This document shows positions 4,460 through 16,273 of a stretch of DNA of 36,032 nucleotides, piece after piece. This stretch comes from Parcubacteria group bacterium GW2011_GWA2_49_9 (lineage in GTDB: Bacteria > Patescibacteriota > Minisyncoccia > Phycocordibacterales > UBA10002), in assembly GCA_001004005.1 (NCBI GenBank), contig LCQF01000024.1:1-36032 (forward strand), in the 5' to 3' direction. The notes under the pieces are model-generated. The model saw nothing but the letters and a program-made list of their open reading frames with translations. It had not been told where the DNA came from and made no database searches. Each line of letters begins with the position of its first letter. The stretch's first letter is position 1. Made by a program: the position numbers and the translations under genes.

Positions 4460-4858
4460 CTACAGCCCTGCTTTCTTAGCGACCCGTCCGGCGCTTGCCG
4501 AAACATCGCGCTTGGCGCTCTTTACCGAATGACTAAGACTCTTCCAGTGCTTTTTCAAGTCCTCCGCGAGAGCGCTTATTTCCCGTTCGCCCGCCTTCTT
4601 ACCCCTTGTGTATTCGGCAGCCACGGAATCTACAATCTCATGATATACCGATTCGCTAACGTCTTTTGCTTTCTCAAGCCTTTCCACGACATCACCCTTC
4701 ATCTTGATGGCCCAGGCCTTGGCGTGAGTCCGATGTGCTTTTCCGTCCGGTCCCAAGAAATAATAGCTTGCCGCGAGTCCGGCGATACTGGCTCCGATAA
4801 TTCCAAGCTTCACCGCTGTGGAACTTCCCTGTGCTGTTTTCTTTTGCATAGTGTACAA
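4460..4858 (-). CDS. Hypothetical protein with N-terminal TM helix (YtxH-like architecture)
   Basis: KLGIIGASIAGLAASYYFLGPDGKAHR followed by a charged helical region; downstream of the sigma gene on the same strand. Confidence 0.6.
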   Translation of the reverse strand: MYTMQKKTAQGSSTAVKLGIIGASIAGLAASYYFLGPDGKAHRTHAKAWAIKMKGDVVERLEKAKDVSESVYHEIVDSVAAEYTRGKKAGEREISALAEDLKKHWKSLSHSVKSAKRDVSASAGRVAKKAGL

Positions 4859-4961: not shown

Positions 4962-5474
4962 TTACGCGTGATTATGGAGAAGTTTGAGCTTAGCCAGTCC
5001 GCGATGCACCTGTACGGCCACAGTGTTTCTTGACTGTCCTGTGACCAGTGACATTTCACCAAGCGAAAGGTCTTGCACGTATCGCATACGCATCACCCGT
5101 TGATAGGTGAGAGGAAGTCGCTCAATGAGAAGTACTGCCGCCTTTCCGTCCAAAACGTTTAAAAAACGATTTGAATCAACGGCAACCGGCTCAAAACCCT
5201 TCTCAACGAGAACGTCAAGCGAGGTTGTTGTATGCTTCCGATATTGGTCCACGATAAGGTGGTTGAGAATATGATACAAAAATGCCTTCATAACTTCAAT
5301 CCTTCCGCCTTTTACGAGATACTTCCACGTCTTCAGAAATGTGTCCTGTACCAAGTCTTCGCCGGTGGAGTGGTCGTGCACCTTATAGAACGCGTATGCA
5401 GTAAGGCCCTTTCCGTAGTCGCTGTGTGCTACTGTAAGGATTCTTCTCTGTTCCAACTCCTGTGTTTGGGTCAT
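4962..5474 (-). CDS. RNA polymerase sigma factor, sigma-70 family, ECF type
   Basis: DHSTGEDLVQDTFLKTWKYL (sigma2) and IERLPLTYQRVMRMRYVQDLSLGEMSLVTGQSRNTVAVQVHRGLAKLK (sigma4). Confidence 0.88.
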   Translation of the reverse strand: MTQTQELEQRRILTVAHSDYGKGLTAYAFYKVHDHSTGEDLVQDTFLKTWKYLVKGGRIEVMKAFLYHILNHLIVDQYRKHTTTSLDVLVEKGFEPVAVDSNRFLNVLDGKAAVLLIERLPLTYQRVMRMRYVQDLSLGEMSLVTGQSRNTVAVQVHRGLAKLKLLHNHA

Positions 5475-5492
5475 TAAGATATTATTAAAATT

Positions 5493-5517
5493 AACGTAGA
5501 TTTAATGATACTATTAC
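5493..5517 (-). promoter_or_regulatory. Candidate ECF promoter of the sigma gene
   Basis: Minus strand GTAAT-agtatcattaaatc-TA-CGTT, 19 nt upstream of the sigma start codon. Confidence 0.5.
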
Positions 5518-5597
5518 CCTATGCAATTAAAGTCAATTAACTATAATCATTACAACACATAATCGGGGAATTACTTTAATACAGAATTAACAATACC

Positions 5598-5626
5598 TTG
5601 CATTTTGTAGCCATAAGTGCTATACA
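5598..5626 (+). promoter_or_regulatory. Sigma70-type promoter for the two-component operon
   Basis: TTGCAT-17 bp-TATACA; ATG at 5636 lies about 10 nt after the -10. Confidence 0.6.
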
Positions 5627-5635
5627 TAACAGTGT

Positions 5636-6304
5636 ATGCCAATCTTAATCATTGAGGATGAGAAAAAACTGGTAGACATATTGAAACGTGCGCTTAAAGG
5701 CGAGCGCTATTCCGTTGATGTCGCCTATGATGGGGAGACAGGTTTGGAAAAGGGTATGAAGAATACATACAGTATGATTATTCTTGATATTATGCTTCCC
5801 AAGAAAGATGGTTTTGCCGTGTGCAAGGAATTACGAGCACGCCAGATTCATACTCCTATTATTATGCTTACCGCTAGAGGAAGCACCGAAGACCGTGTAC
5901 TCGGTCTTGACGCGGGTGCTGATGACTATCTTATAAAGCCATTTGGCATCAATGAGCTTTTTGCTCGGATCCGTGCCGTCTTACGTCGCCGAAAAACAAC
6001 CGATGCGAATATCATCAAAGTTGCGGATTTACTACTGGATAAAAAGAAACACGAGGTGACCCGTGCCGGTAACGTTATTTCGCTTACGCCAAAAGAGTAT
6101 AAGCTCTTGGATATACTTCTCTCTAGCCACGGGGAGGCGATTACCAGACGCAAACTTATTGACCACGCATGGGGGCCGGATTTCAGAGAGTCCAATAATG
6201 AATTAAACGTGCATATTGCTTATTTGCGCACAAAAATAGGAAAAGGAGGCGCGAAAGCTTTGGTTCATACCATACGCGGTGTCGGATTTGTGTTGAAGGA
6301 ATAG
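5636..6304 (+). CDS. OmpR/PhoB-family response regulator
   Basis: Receiver LIIEDEKKLV...IILDIMLPKKDG...MLTARG...KPF plus winged helix LTPKEYKLLDILLS...HIAYLRTKI...TIRGVGFVLKE. Confidence 0.95.
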   Translation: MPILIIEDEKKLVDILKRALKGERYSVDVAYDGETGLEKGMKNTYSMIILDIMLPKKDGFAVCKELRARQIHTPIIMLTARGSTEDRVLGLDAGADDYLIKPFGINELFARIRAVLRRRKTTDANIIKVADLLLDKKKHEVTRAGNVISLTPKEYKLLDILLSSHGEAITRRKLIDHAWGPDFRESNNELNVHIAYLRTKIGKGGAKALVHTIRGVGFVLKE

Positions 6305-6316
6305 TCACCATCTAAT

Positions 6317-7999
6317 ATGAAAAAAAATTCCACCGCCATTACGGCGAAAGCACTTCATCTTAAAGTCAAAGAACTCGCCGTCACGGCGAAGGAGAAGGAG
6401 GGTATCAGGCAGAAGCTTGCCGTGACAGCGGAAAAGCTAAGTGTAAAAGCAAAGCAGCTTGCGGTAACTGCAAAAAAACTTAGCCTCAAAGCGAAGGAGC
6501 TTGCCGTTGTCGCGAAGGAGAAGGAGGTTATCAGGCAGAAGCTTGCCGTGACAGCGGAAGAGCTTCGTGTCAAAGCGAAGGAACTCGCCGTTACGGCGAA
6601 GGAGAAAGAAAGCATCAGACGCAAACTTGCCGTAACTGCCGGAGAACTTCGCTTCAAAGCGAAGGAGCTCGCCGAGATTGCAAAGGAAAAGGAGGTTGTT
6701 AGGCAGAAACTTGCCGTGACGGCGGAAGAACTTCGCGTGAAAGCAAAGGAGCTTGCGGTTACGGCGGAAGCGCTTCGGGGTAAGGCGAAGGAACTTGCTT
6801 TAATTGCCGCCGAGAAGGAGGAAGTTAGGCAGAAACTTGCCGTGACGGCGGAAGAACTTCGTGTCAATGCGGAAGAGCAGGCAAAAAGCGAAGCAAAGTC
6901 AAAGGAATCCGAAATCAGATACAGACGCCTTTTTGAGACCGCTCACGACGGTATCTTGATACTTAACTCCGCCACCAGTCAAATTACGGATGTGAATCCT
7001 TTCTTGGAAAAACTGCTCGGGTATTCCAAAAATGAATTTCTCAACAAGAAATTATGGGAAGTCGGAGCGTTTAAGAATATGAGGGCAGCCAAGGATGCCT
7101 TCAAAATTTTGCAGAAAGAAGGGTATGTACGCTATGAGGACCTACCACTGGAAACAAAAGACGGGCGGTCCATTGAGGTTGAGTTCGTCAGTAATTCCTA
7201 TATGGCCGGCGACAACCTTGTTATGCAATGTAATATACGAGATATCACCGAGCGTAAAAGGTTGGATTTGATTAAAGAGACAAAGAGACTCCTTGACGAA
7301 GAGAGGTCTAAGGTGGAGTCAATCGCGGACGCGACACATGAACTGCGCACCCCCATTGCCATCATCAAAGGTAATGTTGACCTCGCCTTGCAAAGCGAAA
7401 GCAAAAATCCGAAGCCTGCTCGGAGTGCTCTTCGGGCAATCAACTATGAGGTGAAGCATCTCTCTATCATTCTTACCGAACTTTCCCTCATTACCTCTAA
7501 GGCGTGGGAATTGAAAAACAGAATTCTCTTTGAGGAAATACACCTGAAATCTCTCATCGGTATTGTTGTGGAACGATGCGAAGCTCTTGCGTATAAAAAG
7601 AATATCTCCATAACCGTCGGAAACATCTCCGATGTCACGCTCTTGGGCGATAAAATGTATTTGGAAAAGATGCTCATCAATCTTATCAAGAATTCTATTA
7701 TTTACGGCAACAAAGACGGACATACGGCGATTGACATCGTGGATGCAAAAGGAGGTATCGTTATACATATAGCGGATGACGGTATCGGCATATCCGAGGA
7801 AGATTTGCCTCACGTGTTTGAACGATTTTATCGGGCGGACAAATTTCACAGCTCCGGTGGAAACAGCATCGGCCTCGGACTCGCTATCGTGAAATGGATT
7901 GCGGAAGTGCATGGCGGAACGGTGAGCGCCACAAGTGAAAAAGGGAAAGGCAGCGTGTTTAGTGTGTCGTTACCTCTCAAAGCGGTAGCGCCGCTCTAA
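6317..7999 (+). CDS. Sensor histidine kinase with long heptad coiled coil, PAS, HisKA and HATPase_c domains
   Basis: PAS RYRRLFETAHDGILILN...NIRDITERK; H-box DATHELRTPIAIIKG; N/G boxes NLIKNSIIYG, ADDGIGISEEDLPHVFERFYR, GLGLAIVKWIAEVHGG. Confidence 0.95.
   Translation: MKKNSTAITAKALHLKVKELAVTAKEKEGIRQKLAVTAEKLSVKAKQLAVTAKKLSLKAKELAVVAKEKEVIRQKLAVTAEELRVKAKELAVTAKEKESIRRKLAVTAGELRFKAKELAEIAKEKEVVRQKLAVTAEELRVKAKELAVTAEALRGKAKELALIAAEKEEVRQKLAVTAEELRVNAEEQAKSEAKSKESEIRYRRLFETAHDGILILNSATSQITDVNPFLEKLLGYSKNEFLNKKLWEVGAFKNMRAAKDAFKILQKEGYVRYEDLPLETKDGRSIEVEFVSNSYMAGDNLVMQCNIRDITERKRLDLIKETKRLLDEERSKVESIADATHELRTPIAIIKGNVDLALQSESKNPKPARSALRAINYEVKHLSIILTELSLITSKAWELKNRILFEEIHLKSLIGIVVERCEALAYKKNISITVGNISDVTLLGDKMYLEKMLINLIKNSIIYGNKDGHTAIDIVDAKGGIVIHIADDGIGISEEDLPHVFERFYRADKFHSSGGNSIGLGLAIVKWIAEVHGGTVSATSEKGKGSVFSVSLPLKAVAPL
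6332..6877 (+). repeat. Coding heptad repeat region (26 uninterrupted 21-nt units)
   Basis: LAVTAEE LRVKAKE LAVTAKE KEVIRQK-type heptads without phase break. Confidence 0.9.
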
Positions 8000-8028
8000 A
8001 AGGGCCAAGCTCCAGTATCGTATTCACA

Positions 8029-8068
8029 AAACACTACCCTACGGCTATTCGCCGTCGGGTAGTGTTTC
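8029..8068 (+). terminator. Rho-independent terminator
   Basis: aaacactaccctacggc-tattc-gccgtcgggtagtgttt. Confidence 0.8.
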
Positions 8069-8097
8069 GTTTCTATCGATTGAACGTTACAAAGAGT

Positions 8098-8122
8098 GTA
8101 ATAACACAGGTTCAGTAGCGGC
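8098..8122 (+). promoter_or_regulatory. Candidate ECF-type promoter (motif 1)
   Basis: GTAAT-N16-CGGC, 46 nt before ATG 8169. Confidence 0.5.
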
Positions 8123-8168
8123 CTTAACGTAAGCGAGACGTGATTAACAAGCGACCTATTGTAAAAAG

Positions 8169-8549
8169 ATGACATTCATTCAAAAAAAATCTGACAAGAA
8201 AATTTTGCTTTTCCTACTTATCTTGACAACGGTGTTGGTGCTGGGAGGTTTGGCGTATAACCAATTGAGCATTGTACCAGACAATTCTGTCCAGCCCTCG
8301 GTGATGGAAGCTCCGGTAACCTTCGTTACCGCATTAGAACCTGGTAATTCGGCTGGGACTATTACTCTCGGTGATTTACTGCGTGTGTGTCCGAGTGAAG
8401 AAATTATCAATAAAATGCCGACACTCACTCCCAGTCAAAATCCTCCCTCAATCTATTTTATCCTTGAGGGGGAGCGGCGCGAACTCACTGAATTTGACTT
8501 GCCGTGGGTGGCGGCGAATTGCGATGTCGGAGAGCAGGCGGTGTATTAG
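8169..8549 (+). CDS. Hypothetical membrane-anchored protein
   Basis: N-terminal TM ILLFLLILTTVLVLGGLAYNQL. Confidence 0.65.
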   Translation: MTFIQKKSDKKILLFLLILTTVLVLGGLAYNQLSIVPDNSVQPSVMEAPVTFVTALEPGNSAGTITLGDLLRVCPSEEIINKMPTLTPSQNPPSIYFILEGERRELTEFDLPWVAANCDVGEQAVY

Positions 8550-8580
8550 AACGTATTAGTAATTTAATAACGACAATTTT

Positions 8581-9234
8581 ATGCATACTCAAAAAGGCAT
8601 CGCACCCATTATTATCGCGCTCATTGTCGCGCTTCTTGCCAGCGGTGGGTATGTGGTGGTGAAAACCAACCCAGGACTTGCCAAGAAGCTTGGGATGGAG
8701 AAGCAAGTGGAGAAAGAGGAAACGAAGGCAGACAAGAAAGGCGAGACTGCAAATTGGAAAACCTACAAAAATGAAAAGTATGGGTTTAAGTTCTCAATAC
8801 CAAAAGATTGGGCAACGACGCAGGAAAGTACGGGCAAGACCTTTTCGGAATCGTCCGTAAGCGTAACATCCCCTGATTACAAAACAGTTCTTCACCCCGG
8901 TGAACTTGAGTATTACGAGTTAGTACAAGGGGGACGCATTACGATATACGTTCAAGAGCCCTCTCCTAAAAGTATAAGGACACTAAAAGAGTTATCTGAT
9001 TTTAACAAACTTGGTCGCGACGGAGGCCCCGATTTCAAGAATGAGCGAGTAATTGTCGTGAACGATGAAGATGCGCTTTTATATGATTACGAGGGAGGGT
9101 CGCGTGGGGGGAGAGGTCACAAGTTGGAGTTGTTATCCGAAAATCGCTGGGTCAGCATAGAAATCCAGTATGTAACTGCTGACGGAAGCAAGATTTGGGC
9201 TGAAATTCTTTCCACCTTGGAATTTACGAAGTGA
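8581..9234 (+). CDS. Hypothetical secreted/anchored protein (PsbP-like style ectodomain)
   Basis: GIAPIIIALIVALLASGGYVVV TM; YKNEKYGFKFSIPKDW motif. Confidence 0.7.
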   Translation: MHTQKGIAPIIIALIVALLASGGYVVVKTNPGLAKKLGMEKQVEKEETKADKKGETANWKTYKNEKYGFKFSIPKDWATTQESTGKTFSESSVSVTSPDYKTVLHPGELEYYELVQGGRITIYVQEPSPKSIRTLKELSDFNKLGRDGGPDFKNERVIVVNDEDALLYDYEGGSRGGRGHKLELLSENRWVSIEIQYVTADGSKIWAEILSTLEFTK

Positions 9235-9270
9235 AAATAAACATTTTTAGACAGGGAAAAATCTGGATTT

Positions 9271-9295
9271 GTAATAATCTGAACTCTCTAACGTC
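9271..9295 (+). promoter_or_regulatory. Candidate ECF-type promoter (motif 2)
   Basis: GTAAT-N16-CGTC, 10 nt before ATG 9306. Confidence 0.45.
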
Positions 9296-9305
9296 TGTAT
9301 GAAGT

Positions 9306-9485
9306 ATGAAAAAACCTAACGTAGACGAGCATGGCGTCGACATTGCGGAAATAATGGCAGTCGCTGAAAAGATTGTCGACCACACCAATCAGTTTCAGGC
9401 AAAGACGGTTGAGCAAGCGGGGCAGATTGAGGGGCGTGTGTCGGTATTGGAAAAAGAAGTAAGTGAACTGAAGTTAGGACAGTAG
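9306..9485 (+). CDS. Small coiled-coil protein (59 aa, absent from ORF track)
   Basis: MKKPNVDEHGVDIAEIMAVAEKIVDHTNQFQAKTVEQAGQIEGRVSVLEKEVSELKLGQ*. Confidence 0.6.
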   Translation: MKKPNVDEHGVDIAEIMAVAEKIVDHTNQFQAKTVEQAGQIEGRVSVLEKEVSELKLGQ

Positions 9486-9488
9486 GTT

Positions 9489-9513
9489 GTAATATCTTTT
9501 TCTTTCTGTCGGC
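9489..9513 (+). promoter_or_regulatory. Candidate ECF-type promoter (motif 3)
   Basis: GTAAT-N16-CGGC, 87 nt before ATG 9601. Confidence 0.45.
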
Positions 9514-9600
9514 TTAGGAGAGTAACACTACATATGTAAAGTATGTAAAGGTCGAGCAATTTTCAAAAAGCCAATTCTACTTCTAATTAAAATTTCATTT

Positions 9601-10290
9601 ATGAACAAAACTATACAGCTTCAAAAGTCATTTTCTCGTTTCTCTCTGCAGATAGGAACGCTCGCTCTCGCCGCTCTTGTTATGGCTACACCCTTACTTG
9701 CCAGCGCTGAAACCCTCTATCGTCAGTTGGACCTCGGTGCCACCGGCTCTGACGTATCGGCACTTCAGACATTTCTCGCGCAAGACGCGACGCTGTACCC
9801 GCAAGGACTGGTGACGGGCTACTTCGGCTCACTTAGTTTCGCCGCGGTCTCACGATTCCAAACACGCAATGGTATCGCTCCGGTCGGACGGGTTGGACCG
9901 GTCACGCTCGCGGCTCTTAACGCGAAGATGGGAAATGTCTCCAGCGCCGTGGGAGATGTCTACGCTCCCGCTCTCACCAGTGTTAACCTTAATGTCGGTA
10001 ACACGGCCGCAACGGTTAACTGGACGACCAGCTCACCGGCGAGAGGAAAAATGTTCTACAGCACCTCACCGATTCGGCTTAGCAATACGTTTGAGCAGAC
10101 CGGTATGAACTTTGTTGAACCGTATGTAAGCGGAACGCTCGCCTCGTATGACGGGGGAGAGCGAACATTCCAGACAGCTACGGTCAGTGGCTTATCACCG
10201 GATACAACCTACTACTATCTCGTTGAGGCACTTGATGCTTCCAACAACGTAAACATCACGCTTCCCGCCGCATTCCACACGTCTCGATAA
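9601..10290 (+). CDS. Secreted protein with PG_binding_1 domain and Fn3-like domain
   Basis: Signal peptide; LDLGATGSDVSALQTFLAQDATLYPQGLVTGYFGSLSFAAVSRFQTRNGI...VGPVTLAALN; PALTSVNLNVGNTAATVNWTTSSPARGKMFYST. Confidence 0.85.
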   Translation: MNKTIQLQKSFSRFSLQIGTLALAALVMATPLLASAETLYRQLDLGATGSDVSALQTFLAQDATLYPQGLVTGYFGSLSFAAVSRFQTRNGIAPVGRVGPVTLAALNAKMGNVSSAVGDVYAPALTSVNLNVGNTAATVNWTTSSPARGKMFYSTSPIRLSNTFEQTGMNFVEPYVSGTLASYDGGERTFQTATVSGLSPDTTYYYLVEALDASNNVNITLPAAFHTSR

Positions 10291-10306
10291 TAAGGGAGAT
10301 GTGTCG

Positions 10307-10348
10307 GCAAAAAACACCGCTCTGACGTTCGTCGGGGTGGTGTTTTTC
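10307..10348 (+). terminator. Rho-independent terminator
   Basis: aaaaaacaccgctctgacg-ttc-gtcggggtggtgttttt. Confidence 0.75.
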
Positions 10349-10372
10349 TGTGCAGAAAAGTCTCAAACTACG

Positions 10373-10397
10373 GTAATACTCATGTCGGTGGAACGGC
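10373..10397 (+). promoter_or_regulatory. Candidate ECF-type promoter (motif 4)
   Basis: GTAAT-N16-CGGC upstream of ATG 10497. Confidence 0.55.
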
Positions 10398-10406
10398 TCC
10401 ACCTAC

Positions 10407-10456
10407 GGAGTGCAAAAGGAAATGGCCTTTTGTTAAGGCTGCCTTGTTTGTTCTCC
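10407..10456 (+). ncRNA. Structured 5' leader element, copy 1
   Basis: GGAGTGCAAA...TTTGTTCTCC closing stem with internal GGCCTT...AAGGCT hairpin; similar in sequence to the elements at 12854 and 14153. Confidence 0.45.
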
Positions 10457-10496
10457 ACAACTGAAAATCCGGTATTCTGAAATCTGAAATTCTGTT

Positions 10497-11201
10497 ATGA
10501 AAAAACCTACAATTGGTCTGTTCGTCGGTTTCATCGGGCTATTCTTTGCTACGCGAACAAGCACGGCTGAAGAAGTTAACCTACCCACCCCTTACATCAG
10601 TGTCAGTAACGTTGTCCTTCCCGATGAGGATGGGAAACAGGCCATAGTGGTCGCGAATGAAGGTCAACAATTCACCCTTTATTGGGCAAGCATCGATCTT
10701 CCTGAAGGTGCGTCTATCGGTGTTCGCATCTTTAATGAGAAGCTGTCGGCGGGAGACAACATAAGCTACACTCCGAATAAAATGATTATCTCGGGACTAT
10801 CAGCTGTCGCCACTTCCTATACCTGGACAGTACGGGGTAACGACGGAACGTGGGGTGTGGGCTCTGATAATCGTCCCAATGTAAGTGGTTTGAGAGGCGA
10901 GAAGTATACTATCGTTTTGTACGCGAACAATCGGGACGGCCATACCATTGCAGTAGACGCTGGTTTTTACATCACCATCATCCCACCTCTCAGCCTGAAA
11001 AACCTAACCATTTTGGGAGGAAACGCTTATTTCCAGGTGTACGGTATCGCTCCAAATCAAAGCTACAGGATTGAAAGCAGTCAAAATCTGGAAAATCCAT
11101 GGCAGACAAGGTTTGTGTTTAGCGAAAAAGGAGAGGGTTCGGTGGTCTGCTTTCCGGTTTTCAACTCCTCGGCTGAGTTTTTCAGACTTGTGCAGCAGTA
11201 G
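10497..11201 (+). CDS. Secreted protein with C-terminal YRIESSQNLENPWQ...FFRLVQ-type domain
   Basis: Signal peptide MKKPTIGLFVGFIGLFFATRTSTAEE; C-terminus resembles the YRIE-S-nL...W...FFRL pattern of Verrucomicrobia-type secreted proteins. Confidence 0.7.
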   Translation: MKKPTIGLFVGFIGLFFATRTSTAEEVNLPTPYISVSNVVLPDEDGKQAIVVANEGQQFTLYWASIDLPEGASIGVRIFNEKLSAGDNISYTPNKMIISGLSAVATSYTWTVRGNDGTWGVGSDNRPNVSGLRGEKYTIVLYANNRDGHTIAVDAGFYITIIPPLSLKNLTILGGNAYFQVYGIAPNQSYRIESSQNLENPWQTRFVFSEKGEGSVVCFPVFNSSAEFFRLVQQ

Positions 11202-11234
11202 CCGTACAAATTCGCACATTCACGAGACGCACGC

Positions 11235-11271
11235 GACGCTCCTGGCCCCTTGGTCCCGAGCGTCTTTTTTT
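11235..11271 (+). terminator. Rho-independent terminator
   Basis: gacgctc...gagcgtc followed by ttttttt. Confidence 0.75.
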
Positions 11272-11294
11272 ATACCAAAACACACAAAAAGCCC

Positions 11295-11319
11295 GTAATA
11301 TCAGTGCCTTGTGAACGGC
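11295..11319 (+). promoter_or_regulatory. Candidate ECF-type promoter (motif 5)
   Basis: GTAAT-N16-CGGC upstream of ATG 11461. Confidence 0.5.
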
Positions 11320-11460
11320 TTCTCCTGTGTACGCACTACATACGAATAGCTGTATGTAGACGGTATCACATTTGCTCTTTGACACACATCAATTAGACAA
11401 CTACTAGAGGACTTCGGATGAGGTTCTATTTGTGTAGGGAAGAGAGCAAGGAAGGAAATT

Positions 11461-12735
11461 ATGCAGAGAAAATTCAGTATATTCGCAGTGATAGGCGCAC
11501 TCGCTTTCGTGTGCGTGGCAGTTTCAAGATTCTTTACGCCCGAACCTGCGAAGGTTACGGCGGAAGTAAAGACTGAAGCTGTTGCCAAAAAACAAAACTA
11601 TACTATTAATTGAACCGCTTCCGTTATTATTAATTGAAATTGATATTGAACCGCCAATAGCCCACCCCGACCGCAGGCACCTCCCTCGTTGCCCCCTCCG
11701 CCTAACTCACGACCAGGCGTAACGGTGGAAACGCCGGGTGCGCCCATTTCCCTTGACTGGACGCAATTCACCAACCGACGTGGCATGATTAAGTATGCCA
11801 TCGGTCAGGTCCGGCAACTCGTTATCATTATCACCGTTCCCAATTCACTTACGGGCGGTCATACAGTGATAATCAACTATACAAACACCGTCCCTACCTT
11901 CGCGGAAATGAAGGCGCTGGTCGAAGTTGAAATCGCTAAGTTTGAGGTTACATCAGCGCAGGCCATTAAAGTGGCCGGCGTGTTTAGAGATGACAGCTAC
12001 CACAACCCCAAAATATATTCACCGGACATGGGTGTGTTGTTTCAAGGCTCAACATTCGCTTCGCCTTTGTCTGAAAGTGGAAATGGCAGCGTGATGTGGG
12101 AAGCCGATGCTGAAATCATCATGCGCTTGAGCGACACGATTCCCGTGAGGATTGAGGGATTGAAATCGGCCCAGCTTATCACGTATCAAGAGGACGATGT
12201 ACCACGCAGCCGACCATTGGACATTGACTTGGATGGCAGACTGATGCTCCCCACCCAACTCTCTGGTGAGCAGGAAATTATCTATCGCGCTCCAAGCGAC
12301 GTCGGTAATTACACTACGGCCGCTTTCTCCCTAGTGACCGGGCAACGGATACCCATACGCCAGATTACGGTGCGAGCGTTGGTGTTTACACCCGACGTCT
12401 TGTCGTTCAAAAATAAGACATCGGTAGAGGTCATCATTCCAACATGGGAGGGCTACGGGATTATCCCACTCGTTGAGCTCATCTACGATAAAGAGAACGT
12501 AACCTCAAGGGTTGAGGTTTCAATCAGCACATATGATGGCGCACCCCCACCTACCCCGGCACTTAAAGTTCGTGGCTTCTGGATAGAAAACGCCCAAACC
12601 CACGAGCGGGGATATATCACAATTCACCCCGAGGAGAAATCGGTTATTCTTGAAAAGGTCTTACCGGGTGTGTACTGGGTTGAACTGGACATTGATGTCA
12701 ATGAAGGAGGGGCAGGGGACGGTAGTGGTGGTTGA
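11461..12735 (+). pseudogene. Secreted protein gene, apparently interrupted: 50-aa signal-peptide ORF (11461-11613) in the same frame as a 348-aa ORF (from about 11650)
   Basis: RBS aaggaagg before ATG 11461; MQRKFSIFAVIGALAFVCVAVSRFF signal/TM; TGA at 11611, 11635, 11641 and 11647; then TANSPPRPQAPPSLPPPPNSRPG linker and body. Confidence 0.55.
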
Positions 12736-12768
12736 AAGTCAAACTGACTGATGTGTTAAAATCATAAG

Positions 12769-12804
12769 TCGCATATTCTTCTCCGGAGGGGTATGCGCTT
12801 TTTT
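12769..12804 (+). terminator. Rho-independent terminator
   Basis: cgcata...ctccggag...tatgcg followed by cttttttat. Confidence 0.65.
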
Positions 12805-12819
12805 ATACCAAAAACCCCT

Positions 12820-12844
12820 GTAATCTTGCCACCTCTGAAACGGC
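12820..12844 (+). promoter_or_regulatory. Candidate ECF-type promoter (motif 6)
   Basis: GTAAT-N16-CGGC upstream of ATG 12920. Confidence 0.55.
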
Positions 12845-12851
12845 TTCACAG

Positions 12852-12901
12852 GTGGAGTACAAAAGAGACTGGCCTTAACTAAGGCTGTATTTGTTCTCCA
12901 C
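12852..12901 (+). ncRNA. Structured 5' leader element, copy 2
   Basis: GTGGAGTACAAA...TTTGTTCTCCAC with internal GGCCTTAACTAAGGCT. Confidence 0.45.
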
Positions 12902-12919
12902 AACTGAAAAGAAGGATTT

Positions 12920-13195
12920 ATGATTGACGCTACACCATTGAATACTGACGGGGAACTGACGGATAAACAACTGGAACAGTTTGTCGCCGATGGTCTTGAT
13001 GCAGAGCAGCACGCGGCACGGCTAGAGGAGTCTAAAAGAAGAAATGCGGCGATTGACTCTGCGCGTGGCGGACAGCCTCTGAATCGCGAAACCGTTACAA
13101 GGTGTATTTGTAAGAGCATTGATATGCAGTTTGTGACAAAAGAGCAACTGGAACAGATGGTTACTCTTGAAATAAACTTTCCGGGTGTGAGATAG
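12920..13195 (+). CDS. Hypothetical protein
   Basis: 91 aa, MIDATPLNTDGELTDKQLEQFVADGL...; preceded by gaaggattt and leader copy 2. Confidence 0.6.
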   Translation: MIDATPLNTDGELTDKQLEQFVADGLDAEQHAARLEESKRRNAAIDSARGGQPLNRETVTRCICKSIDMQFVTKEQLEQMVTLEINFPGVR

Positions 13196-13246
13196 TTTCT
13201 GTTCTCTGACAGATGAAAAGTAAAACGTCTACAATTTGGGGGATTT

Positions 13247-14041
13247 CTGAAAACAAACACAACAGCACGAAACGGCTTCACACTCATTGAACTTTTGGTC
13301 GTTATCGCCATTATCGGCGTTCTTGCAGGTCTGCTTTTACCCGCGCTCGCGAGTGCGAAGTCAAAAGCACACGCAACTTACTGCCGGAACAATCTTCGGC
13401 AGATTGGGATTGGGCTTCTGAACTACGCTCAGGACAACGGAGCATATCCCTTCTTTGAGCGACTAGCAGGTGTTTCCGAACCGAATGGAGCAAAGTGGTT
13501 TGACGATATTGTGCCAGAGCTTCCGAAAGGGTGGGGTAAAGGCATTTTCCGATGTCCGACATACACAGGAGCAGTTAGTGGGTATTCTTCTCCTGTCAAC
13601 TATCGTAACCATACATCGTTGGGTTCGTATGCATACAACATCGGAACTGCCAATGAAGCTGGCTCGTATTCTCACTACGGATTGGCGAAGATGTCTTTTC
13701 GGTCTTTGTTTGAACCAGTGACAACAGCCGTTCACGAATCGGAAGTGAGAAGTCCGAGCGAGATGATAGCAGTAGGCGATTCGTTTTCGCGCTCGTATCG
13801 TTCGTCGGCGTCCTCATCACGCATAACGTACGGGATGGATTCTCTTTCACGAAAGAACGGTATGAGTGCCATCTTCTTTTGGGATTCTGAGCTGTTACAT
13901 CACCGCGGAATGGCACACATTACGTTTGCCGATGGACACGTTGAGGGGAACTCGCTCACAAACTTGTTCTTTAACCTCAACGAAAAATGGCTTCGTCGCT
14001 GGCACACCGACAACGAACCTCACACGGAGTTGTTCCAGTAA
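13247..14041 (+). CDS. Type II secretion/prepilin-like protein with H-X9-DG motif (apparent CTG start)
   Basis: (L/M)[55 protein letters not shown]; the track start at 13295 cuts the prepilin peptide. Confidence 0.85.
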
Positions 14042-14074
14042 ACTCACAAGCACACATCTTCTCGCAACAACCAC

Positions 14075-14102
14075 CCGCCGGAACTTCACCGGCGGTTTTT
14101 TA
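14075..14102 (+). terminator. Rho-independent terminator
   Basis: ccgccgg-aacttca-ccggcgg-tttttt. Confidence 0.85.
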
Positions 14103-14118
14103 TGTCAAAAAATCCTCT

Positions 14119-14143
14119 GTAATGGCCCTACTCTTGAAGCGGC
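14119..14143 (+). promoter_or_regulatory. Candidate ECF-type promoter (motif 7)
   Basis: GTAAT-N16-CGGC upstream of ATG 14238. Confidence 0.5.
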
Positions 14144-14152
14144 TTCACCGTT

Positions 14153-14200
14153 GGAGTACAAAAAAGACTGGCCTTACCTAAGGCTGTTTTTGTTCCTCGA
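14153..14200 (+). ncRNA. Structured 5' leader element, copy 3
   Basis: GGAGTACAAAAA...TTTTTGTTCCTC with GGCCTTACCTAAGGCT. Confidence 0.4.
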
Positions 14201-14237
14201 TAGCCGAAAATTCCGAACTCTGAAACTCTACTATCCT

Positions 14238-14573
14238 ATGAAAAAATACCTCGTTCGTCTGATGATTGGTCTGGCGTCGCTACTTTCCGTTGCGCACACA
14301 AGCGCGGCGGAAATAACCCCCTCTATCTCTATCATCATACCGATTTTAATTGAACAGGTATATCCTAATCAAGTTCGGTGTATCTTCCAGACGGTAAAGG
14401 GGGAATGGTATGTCCATGAATATGCAACGGATATGGCGCATTGGACCACGGACTACTCGTTTCAGGCACACGGAAGCCAGTTTGTGTCCAGGGAGACGAA
14501 GACTATGAATATGATGTTTTTTCGCATCCGTCCGTTCGTACCGCAAAGCCCGACGCAGACGGCTTTTAGGTAG
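14238..14573 (+). CDS. Small secreted protein
   Basis: MKKYLVRLMIGLASLLSVAHTSAAEITPS signal peptide; ...MMFFRIRPF; the longer track ORF from 13866 is a frame extension. Confidence 0.7.
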   Translation: MKKYLVRLMIGLASLLSVAHTSAAEITPSISIIIPILIEQVYPNQVRCIFQTVKGEWYVHEYATDMAHWTTDYSFQAHGSQFVSRETKTMNMMFFRIRPFVPQSPTQTAFR

Positions 14574-14599
14574 ATAGCGTTCCTCCACTTCAGATAACC

Positions 14600-14632
14600 A
14601 CGCGCCACCCTTCGGTCGGCGCGTCATTTTTA
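14600..14632 (+). terminator. Rho-independent terminator
   Basis: acgcgcc...ggcgcgt followed by cattttta. Confidence 0.65.
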
Positions 14633-14659
14633 TATTTCGCAGAGATACAAGAAAACACT

Positions 14660-14684
14660 GTAATGTCTTCGTGTCTGTAACGGC
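14660..14684 (+). promoter_or_regulatory. Candidate ECF-type promoter (motif 8)
   Basis: GTAAT-N16-CGGC, 41 nt before ATG 14726. Confidence 0.5.
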
Positions 14685-14725
14685 ATTACTAAGTAGGTCG
14701 ACAATCAGCTTCACAAAAACTATGT

Positions 14726-14866
14726 ATGCTTTTAACTATTGGTTTAGTACTCGTCGTCCTGTGGCTCCTCGGAATTATCGCGTTTCCAGTTCTTGGCTCA
14801 TTTATTCATCTTTTACTTGTCGTTGCCATTGTGGTGGTTCTCGTACGAATTATCAGAGGGGAGTAA
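14726..14866 (+). CDS. Lmo0937-family small membrane protein (46 aa, absent from ORF track)
   Basis: MLLTIGLVLVVLWLLGIIAFPVLGSFIHLLLVVAIVVVLVRIIRGE*. Confidence 0.85.
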   Translation: MLLTIGLVLVVLWLLGIIAFPVLGSFIHLLLVVAIVVVLVRIIRGE

Positions 14867-14968
14867 AAACGTAACATTCAACACCAAAACCGAATCTGTT
14901 TCCGGAAAGCAAGCATCTTTTATTTTTCACTTTTACGTCCAGCACACCTACTCATTTTTTTGAATTCT

Positions 14969-16273
14969 ATGAACACTCGCACACATATATTTTTCTCTTC
15001 CGGCTTGGTGATTACGCTCGTCCTTTCGTTTCTTGGGGCGATTCCGGTGCATGCCGCCACTACGGCACCTGTACAACTAGGTACGGCAGCTGACTTCGCA
15101 TTATTGTCTAAAACCGGAGTGTCAACCACCGGAGTAACCTCGGTTACCGGAAACATCGGAGTGAGTCCCGCGGCCGCGAGTTACCTTACCGGCTTTGCGC
15201 TCACACTCCCCGCTGCCGGCTCATTTTCAACTTCGGCTCTCGTCACCGGAAAGATATACGCCTCCGATTATGCGAATCCGACTCCCGCGAACCTGACGAC
15301 CGCCGTTCTTGATATGCAAACGGCATATACGAGCGCTATGAGCATTGCTCCCACAGTTACCGAGCTTGGCGCGGGAAGCATTGGCGGTCTTACGCTTGTT
15401 CCAGGTGTGTACAAGTGGAGTACGAACCTTCTTGTACCGACCGATGTTACCCTTTCGGGGAGCGCGCAGGATGTCTGGATTTTTCAGATTGCGCAAAATC
15501 TTACGATACGTGCCGCGACGAAAGTAGTGCTCGCCGGAGGAGCGAAAGCGGATAACATTTTCTGGGTCGTGGCCGGACAGACAAGTGTCGGTACGACCGC
15601 CGTTGTATACGGAACTATTTTAGACCAGACCGCCATTGTGCTGAATACCGGTGCAACATTATATGGGCGAGCACTCGCGCAAACTGCCGTAACTCTTGAT
15701 GCCAATGTCATCACGGTTCCTACCGGTTCCGCTACTTCCGCTATTCCGGCAACTTCGGCGATACCGACTGTGATTTCAGCTATTCCAGCTACGCCCGCCG
15801 TTCCCTCAACCAACTCGCAGTCTTCACAAAATACGACTACCAATGCATCTGGGCAGACATCAGCTTCACAAACCTATCCTCGCGGTCAGGCAGTGACGCT
15901 CGGAAATGGACAGACCGTGTATGTGAATGCCAATGGAGGGTTTACCGACGCACAAGGGCAATCACTGTCAAACAGTGCGGTGTCCTCGACTGCTCTCGGA
16001 GCTATGCCGTCCGCTTCTTCTCTTGGACAACAGGTTAGAGCGATTGCAACGAATCTCGGAAAGGGTAGTAATGGCAATAGCGTCGCAACTCTCCAACAAT
16101 TTCTGATTTCTCAAAACAAGGGTTCCGCCGCAAGTGCTTTAGCTCGTGTCGGTGCGACCTCTCACTTTGGTTCACTGACGAAGACGGCGCTTGCCGAATT
16201 TCAGGCAAGCGTTGGCTTAATCTTGACCCCTCTTCCTCTCCCCCTTTCCAAAGGGGAGATTGAGAGGGGGTAG
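14969..16273 (+). CDS. DUF3494 (ice-binding) family protein with C-terminal PG_binding-like remnant
   Basis: LGTAADFALLSKTGVSTTG...SVTGNIGVSPAA...GTLDQ/ILDQTAIVLNTGATLYGRALAQTAVTLDANVI; C-term NGNSVATLQQFLIS...FGSLTKTALAEFQASVG. Confidence 0.9.
   Translation: MNTRTHIFFSSGLVITLVLSFLGAIPVHAATTAPVQLGTAADFALLSKTGVSTTGVTSVTGNIGVSPAAASYLTGFALTLPAAGSFSTSALVTGKIYASDYANPTPANLTTAVLDMQTAYTSAMSIAPTVTELGAGSIGGLTLVPGVYKWSTNLLVPTDVTLSGSAQDVWIFQIAQNLTIRAATKVVLAGGAKADNIFWVVAGQTSVGTTAVVYGTILDQTAIVLNTGATLYGRALAQTAVTLDANVITVPTGSATSAIPATSAIPTVISAIPATPAVPSTNSQSSQNTTTNASGQTSASQTYPRGQAVTLGNGQTVYVNANGGFTDAQGQSLSNSAVSSTALGAMPSASSLGQQVRAIATNLGKGSNGNSVATLQQFLISQNKGSAASALARVGATSHFGSLTKTALAEFQASVGLILTPLPLPLSKGEIERG
16225..16272. 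repeat. Palindromic CCCCTTT-CC-AAAGGGG repeat at the 3' end of the CDS
   Basis: acccctcttcctctccccctttccaaaggggagattgagagggggt; related palindromes at 4376, 21357, 22180, 23505, 24362 and 28388. Confidence 0.65.

Follow-up and report, generated by a model that had tools for sequence, protein, structure and literature searches.

Probable two-component control of an ECF sigma gene in a parcubacterium, from a sigma70-type promoter

Is the ECF sigma gene of this locus transcribed by its own product, or does its input come from elsewhere? The question is raised by a GTAAT motif close to the start codon of the minus-strand gene at 4962-5474, which the original prediction had read as a sign of autoregulation. 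It was addressed in the window, that is, the entire 36-kb contig of a 910-kb genome, and by comparison with orthologous loci.

The sigma gene and the promoters downstream of it

The sigma gene and its neighbors are arranged as follows:

4460-4858 (-): small protein, weakly YtxH-like (profile match E 0.098, below the cut-off)
4962-5474 (-): ECF sigma factor gene, 170 aa (Pfam Sigma70_r4_2 1.6e-10, Sigma70_r2 2.6e-8)
5636-6304 (+): OmpR/PhoB-type response regulator (Pfam Response_reg 8e-30, Trans_reg_C 1.3e-21)
6317-7999 (+): PAS histidine kinase (Pfam PAS, HisKA, HATPase_c)

The assignment of the minus-strand gene to the ECF factors was borne out by profile searches. The protein contains regions 2 and 4 only, both scoring above the curated Pfam cut-offs (Sigma70_r2 34.0 against 24, Sigma70_r4_2 40.9 against 25.7), and it matches TIGR02937, the NCBIfam model of the sigma70-ECF superfamily, with 49.8 against a cut-off of 42.9. 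It is a genuine ECF factor. No second relative was found in its own genome, and its named relatives come from Paceibacterota/Parcubacteria such as Taylorbacteria, Zambryskibacteria and Nomurabacteria. A Pfam domain search of the adjacent genes revealed no anti-sigma domain beside the sigma gene, in agreement with the earlier statement that no recognisable anti-sigma factor lies next to it; one encoded elsewhere, or of an unfamiliar kind, may exist. The product of 4460-4858, which had been put forward as the only nearby candidate for this function, finds no support as such: its YtxH likeness is weak and below the cut-off, and it occurs only sporadically near sigma orthologs.

Eight sites on the plus strand between 8098 and 14684 consist of GTAAT-N16 followed by CGGC in seven cases and by CGTC in one. 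Over 2000 shuffles of that region, the mean number of such sites was 0.09 and the maximum 2; the eight sites are real. To build a weight matrix, we used 53 promoters of sigma genes without a two-component neighbor, all from other genomes. Nothing was imposed after the CG of the -10 element, and the same 53 promoters were selected with or without a forced final C. When both strands of the window were scanned, the eight downstream sites took ranks 1 to 8:

8098-8122 (+): ECF-type promoter, score 14.9, before 8169-8549
9271-9295 (+): ECF-type promoter, weakest of the eight, score 7.5, before 9306-9485 (short PAS-protein family homolog)
9489-9513 (+): ECF-type promoter, score 12.8, before 9601-10290 (PG_binding_1 and Pur_ac_phosph_N domains)
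10373-10397 (+): ECF-type promoter, score 13.3, before 10497-11201
11295-11319 (+): ECF-type promoter, score 23.0, before 11461-11613
12820-12844 (+): ECF-type promoter, score 19.7, before 12920-13195
14119-14143 (+): ECF-type promoter, score 15.3, before 14238-14573
14660-14684 (+): ECF-type promoter, score 14.4, before the DUF5670/lmo0937 gene 14726-14866 and then the ice-binding gene 14960-16273

Since the ninth-ranked match scores 7.4, close to the 7.5 of the site at 9271, this site is the one among the eight in which confidence is lowest. Owing to its independent origin in other genomes, the matrix ties the eight sites to the sigma family while setting the sigma gene's own promoter apart, and we infer that the sigma protein recognises GTAAT/CGGC. 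Genome-wide, GTAAT-N16-CGKY occurs 25 times against 21 in a reversed control, so no regulon signal was found outside the window; counts of GTAAT-N16-CGGC in 32 genomes were likewise too near the control for regulon mapping.

Downstream of three of the eight sites lies a common leader, about 70 nt long (10398-10470, 12845-12915 and 14144-14215). It is predicted to fold into a two-part hairpin with GGAG...CTCC around GGCCTTAACTAAGGC, without covariation in the three copies, and a search of 5400-14800, including these leaders, gave no Rfam match.

The promoter of the sigma gene in the window and in its orthologs

The motif described upstream of the sigma start codon, GTAAT-agtatcattaaatc-TA-CGTT, is present at 5493-5517(-), with a gap to the ATG of 18 nt rather than 19. 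It had also been equated with the eight downstream sites: the 16-nt spacer is indeed the same, but the -10 element differs, being CGTT instead of CGGC or CGTC. A final T occurs in 0/53 training promoters (CGGC in 43, CGTC in 6 and CGAC in 4), and the site scores -2.5 and ranks 73rd in the window, both strands included. Because a matrix built on promoters of other genomes places the eight targets at ranks 1 to 8 and this site at rank 73, self-activation through 5493-5517 is not supported.

On the same strand, the region reads TTGACT-N17-TAGTAT-CA-TTAAATCTACGTTAA (5536-5531, 17 bp, 5513-5508, CA, 5505-5491), and the intergenic region as a whole contains the following elements:

5531-5536 (-): -35 element TTGACT of a sigma70-type promoter of the sigma gene; TTGAC-N18-TAnnnT in 14/17 syntenic orthologs
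5508-5513 (-): -10 element TAGTAT, 17 bp from the -35, with a counterpart in syntenic orthologs
5493-5517 (-): GTAAT-N16-CGTT match, probably coincidental judging by the ortholog comparison and the matrix score
5491-5505 (-): direct repeat TTAAATCTACGTTAA with an 11-bp period, predicted response-regulator box, at about -4 to +11; TTAA-N7-TTAA in 17/17 syntenic orthologs
5474-5488 (-): second TTAA-N7-TTAA box, which extends to the start codon, present in loci L062 and L104 too
5576-5590 (+): TTAATACAGAATTAA box upstream of the response-regulator promoter; the repeat is rare in the genome, and boxes are found there in orthologs too
5598-5626 (+): putative promoter TTGCAT-N17-TATACA of the response-regulator gene, from its sequence and its counterparts in syntenic orthologs

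For the comparison, we gathered 100 distinct sigma orthologs of 48-100% identity from two whole-genome searches (148 relatives and 397 of the same order, the genomes partly overlapping) and one named collection. In 17 of them, the window included, the sigma gene is divergent from a response regulator 64-100% identical to the 5636-6304 product; these form the syntenic class. The non-syntenic set comprises the 82 orthologs with enough upstream sequence.

The two sets differ in their promoter elements. The repeat TTAA-N7-TTAA is found in all 17 syntenic promoters (0.97 expected) versus 1/82 non-syntenic ones, and TTAA repeats with any other spacing in at most 4 of the 17. The strict sigma70 pattern TTGAC-N18-TAnnnT occurs in 14/17 (0.05 expected) versus 0/82, and is absent in three syntenic orthologs; sigma start codons were difficult to place in L064, L065 and L102. 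Conversely, GTAAT-N16-CGGC is found in 0/17 syntenic versus 43/82 non-syntenic promoters (about 0 expected), and 62 of the latter carry a looser form of this motif. Where the distance could be scored, the repeat box begins 1-2 nt past the -10 in 11 of 15 promoters. This comparison shows two wirings, with conserved elements at conserved spacings: most non-syntenic orthologs seem to be autoregulated by GTAAT-N16-CGGC, and the window has the architecture of the two-component-linked wiring. The original prediction had connected the motif to this sigma factor, and the connection stands at the family level through the 43 non-syntenic promoters with the strict pattern, but not through the gene's own promoter site.

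Alignment of the window with L062, L058 and L104 (the L107 row was left out) shows that the promoter and the repeat are kept while the GTAAT-N16-CG match is absent. L058, which is the sister of the window in the sigma-protein tree with good support, has the same sigma70/TTAA architecture and no GTAAT match. The presence of the motif upstream of orthologous sigma genes had been proposed as a check, and all 16 other syntenic orthologs lack it and carry a sigma70-type promoter with TTAA-N7-TTAA in its place. In the reported "GTAAT", the four letters GTAA close the spacer and the T opens TAGTAT; in "CGTT", the TT after the CG opens the second TTAA, so that three of the nine fixed letters are already set by the conserved -10 hexamer and the conserved repeat. 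GTAAT-N16-CGTT is most likely a chance overlay of the spacer end, the -10 hexamer and the repeat.

TTAA-N7-TTAA occurs at 10 places in the whole 910-kb genome, three of which lie at 5474-5590, and syntenic orthologs have such boxes upstream of the regulator's own promoter as well. The 5636-6304 product is predicted to bind these repeats, which are AT-rich and near-palindromic and are linked to the regulator by co-occurrence only.

A candidate circuit and its alternatives

Taken together, the comparison makes it probable that the sigma gene is controlled by the two-component system from its sigma70-type promoter, the GTAAT-N16-CGTT letters being a chance overlay. A signal would pass from the PAS histidine kinase to the OmpR-type regulator (5636-6304), while the sigma gene would be transcribed by the housekeeping machinery from TTGACT-N17-TAGTAT. 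The regulator may bind TTAA-N7-TTAA boxes at both genes, with one or two covering the start site of the sigma gene (5474-5505) and a further one before its own promoter (5576-5590). Repression of the sigma gene is suggested because the box covers the start site, and activation of the regulator gene because the box there lies upstream of the promoter; this positional rule, under which overlapping sites usually repress, is stated for direct-repeat binders in PMC4168254. The level of sigma would then set the output of GTAAT-N16-CGGC/CGTC promoters of local secreted, envelope and stress-type proteins.

Autoregulation is usual among ECF factors. The reported site could accordingly be a working ECF promoter, perhaps a recent gain on top of the sigma70/two-component promoter that adds positive feedback. 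Its spacing and its -35 are exact, most non-syntenic orthologs appear to be self-regulated with GTAAT-N16-CGGC, and a bare GTAAT-N16-CG[GT][CT] match is expected only about 0.005 times over 17 upstream regions of shuffled sequence. This rarity is why we leave a small probability for a weak ECF promoter of recent origin in this lineage; with a match in 0/16 other syntenic orthologs, a final -10 letter never seen in the training promoters, a score of -2.5 against 7.5-23 for the eight targets, and letters that coincide with the conserved -10 and repeat, we regard it as unlikely. A tentative variant of the two-component reading, less probable than repression, is that the regulator activates the sigma gene, acting on the sigma70-type promoter or on a second -10 that would directly precede the ATG. 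The precedent is the activation of sigE by CseB in Streptomyces (PMC6767563); L062 has TATAAT at that position, and an AT-rich, TAATAA-like sequence follows the repeat in the window. However, a -10 immediately before the ATG is not general, and in most orthologs the box lies at a constant distance and covers the expected start site, an overlap that usually represses (PMC4168254).

A reading of GTAAT as half of an OmpR-type binding site, and not as an ECF -35 element, is very unlikely. That idea draws on the tandem TGTAAT-N5-TGTAAT, which resembles the WalR/VicR box; among the 41 scored promoters of non-syntenic sigma genes, 33 have it. Against it, the tandem copy is found at just 15 of 144 other sites, the spacing of GTAAT-N16-CGGC is exact in the targets, and the more distant ECF genes of L083-L095 (sigma 35-42% identical) often have GTAAG- or GTAAT-N16-CGTC upstream, as read by eye. 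The tandem has an 11-bp period and is seen, for example, in the sigma promoters of L059, L069, L070, L071, L073 and L075. Because of its resemblance to the WalR/VicR box, a second regulator may act at these promoters.

Target genes and relation to known systems

Across genomes, matrix sites most often lie before three kinds of gene: the sigma gene of the autoregulated class, the PG_binding family (homologs of 9601-10290, 46 loci) and the PAS-protein family (homologs of 9306-9485, 41 loci). Fewer precede single-domain response regulators and YGGT-like, Transgly_assoc and DUF5670 proteins. The targets in the window include the DUF5670/lmo0937 protein, followed by ice-binding-like genes, and other two-component-linked genomes have matrix sites before PAS-protein, PG_binding and ice-binding-like genes. 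As genomes of this class keep the sites at target genes, the regulon motif persists without autoregulation. Judging by these families, the target set resembles a regulon for envelope or general stress. The stretch 10497-14573 holds short secreted-type ORFs and a DUF1559 pilin-like protein (13295-14041); homologs of these ORFs are missing from most of the sigma loci fetched, and they were possibly acquired.

The favored two-component reading has its closest studied counterpart in SigE-CseBC of Streptomyces coelicolor, where an anti-sigma factor is absent and SigE does not act on the sigE promoter (PMC6767563; reviewed in PMC8999054). The window likewise combines an ECF sigma without an evident adjacent anti-sigma factor, a linked two-component system and a sigma promoter that does not appear to be a sigma target, and SigE-CseBC-like control without an anti-sigma factor is, by analogy, the better reading of the locus. 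SigE-CseBC differs in forming one operon, whereas the two-component system here is divergent from the sigma gene and belongs to a different phylum. In addition, the window has predicted repeats over the start site, no CseA-like gene was seen, and its response regulator scores far below the cut-off of the CseB model. WalR/VicR-type regulators share the OmpR family and half-sites every 11 bp (PMC4168254), but their half-site is TGTWAH instead of TTAA, and the YycF equivalog model scores well below its cut-off on the window regulator.

A further comparison is with the autoregulated Paceibacterota sigma genes (L056, L059, L066, L069 and others), whose proteins are about 55-70% identical and share the target motif and part of the target families. 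These loci differ in having tandem TGTAAT and neither an adjacent two-component system nor TTAA repeats. We lean toward viewing them as one Paceibacterota ECF sigma family with two promoter wirings, self-activated with tandem TGTAAT or two-component-controlled with TTAA over the start site, which would mean that nature has rewired the input of a stress regulon while its target motif and output stayed constant. Little has been described of how transcription is controlled in these small-genome, mostly uncultured bacteria, and in the literature searched for ECF factors in Patescibacteria, the candidate phyla radiation or Parcubacteria, no study of a regulon of this kind came up. The comparison yields a concrete, testable circuit of regulator, box, sigma, target motif and targets. 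It also illustrates how a motif match that looks convincing can be misleading unless the promoters of orthologs are compared.

A few ortholog loci have further features. Genes for a small membrane protein and for a YtxH-like protein are found repeatedly downstream of the sigma gene (L132, L169, L173 and L146/L062), and in L132 a DUF5670-like gene lies in between. In L081 (G128:C20), the sigma gene is apparently split by a frameshift. In the distant loci L083-L095, a gene that perhaps encodes an anti-sigma factor often overlaps the 3' end of the sigma gene.
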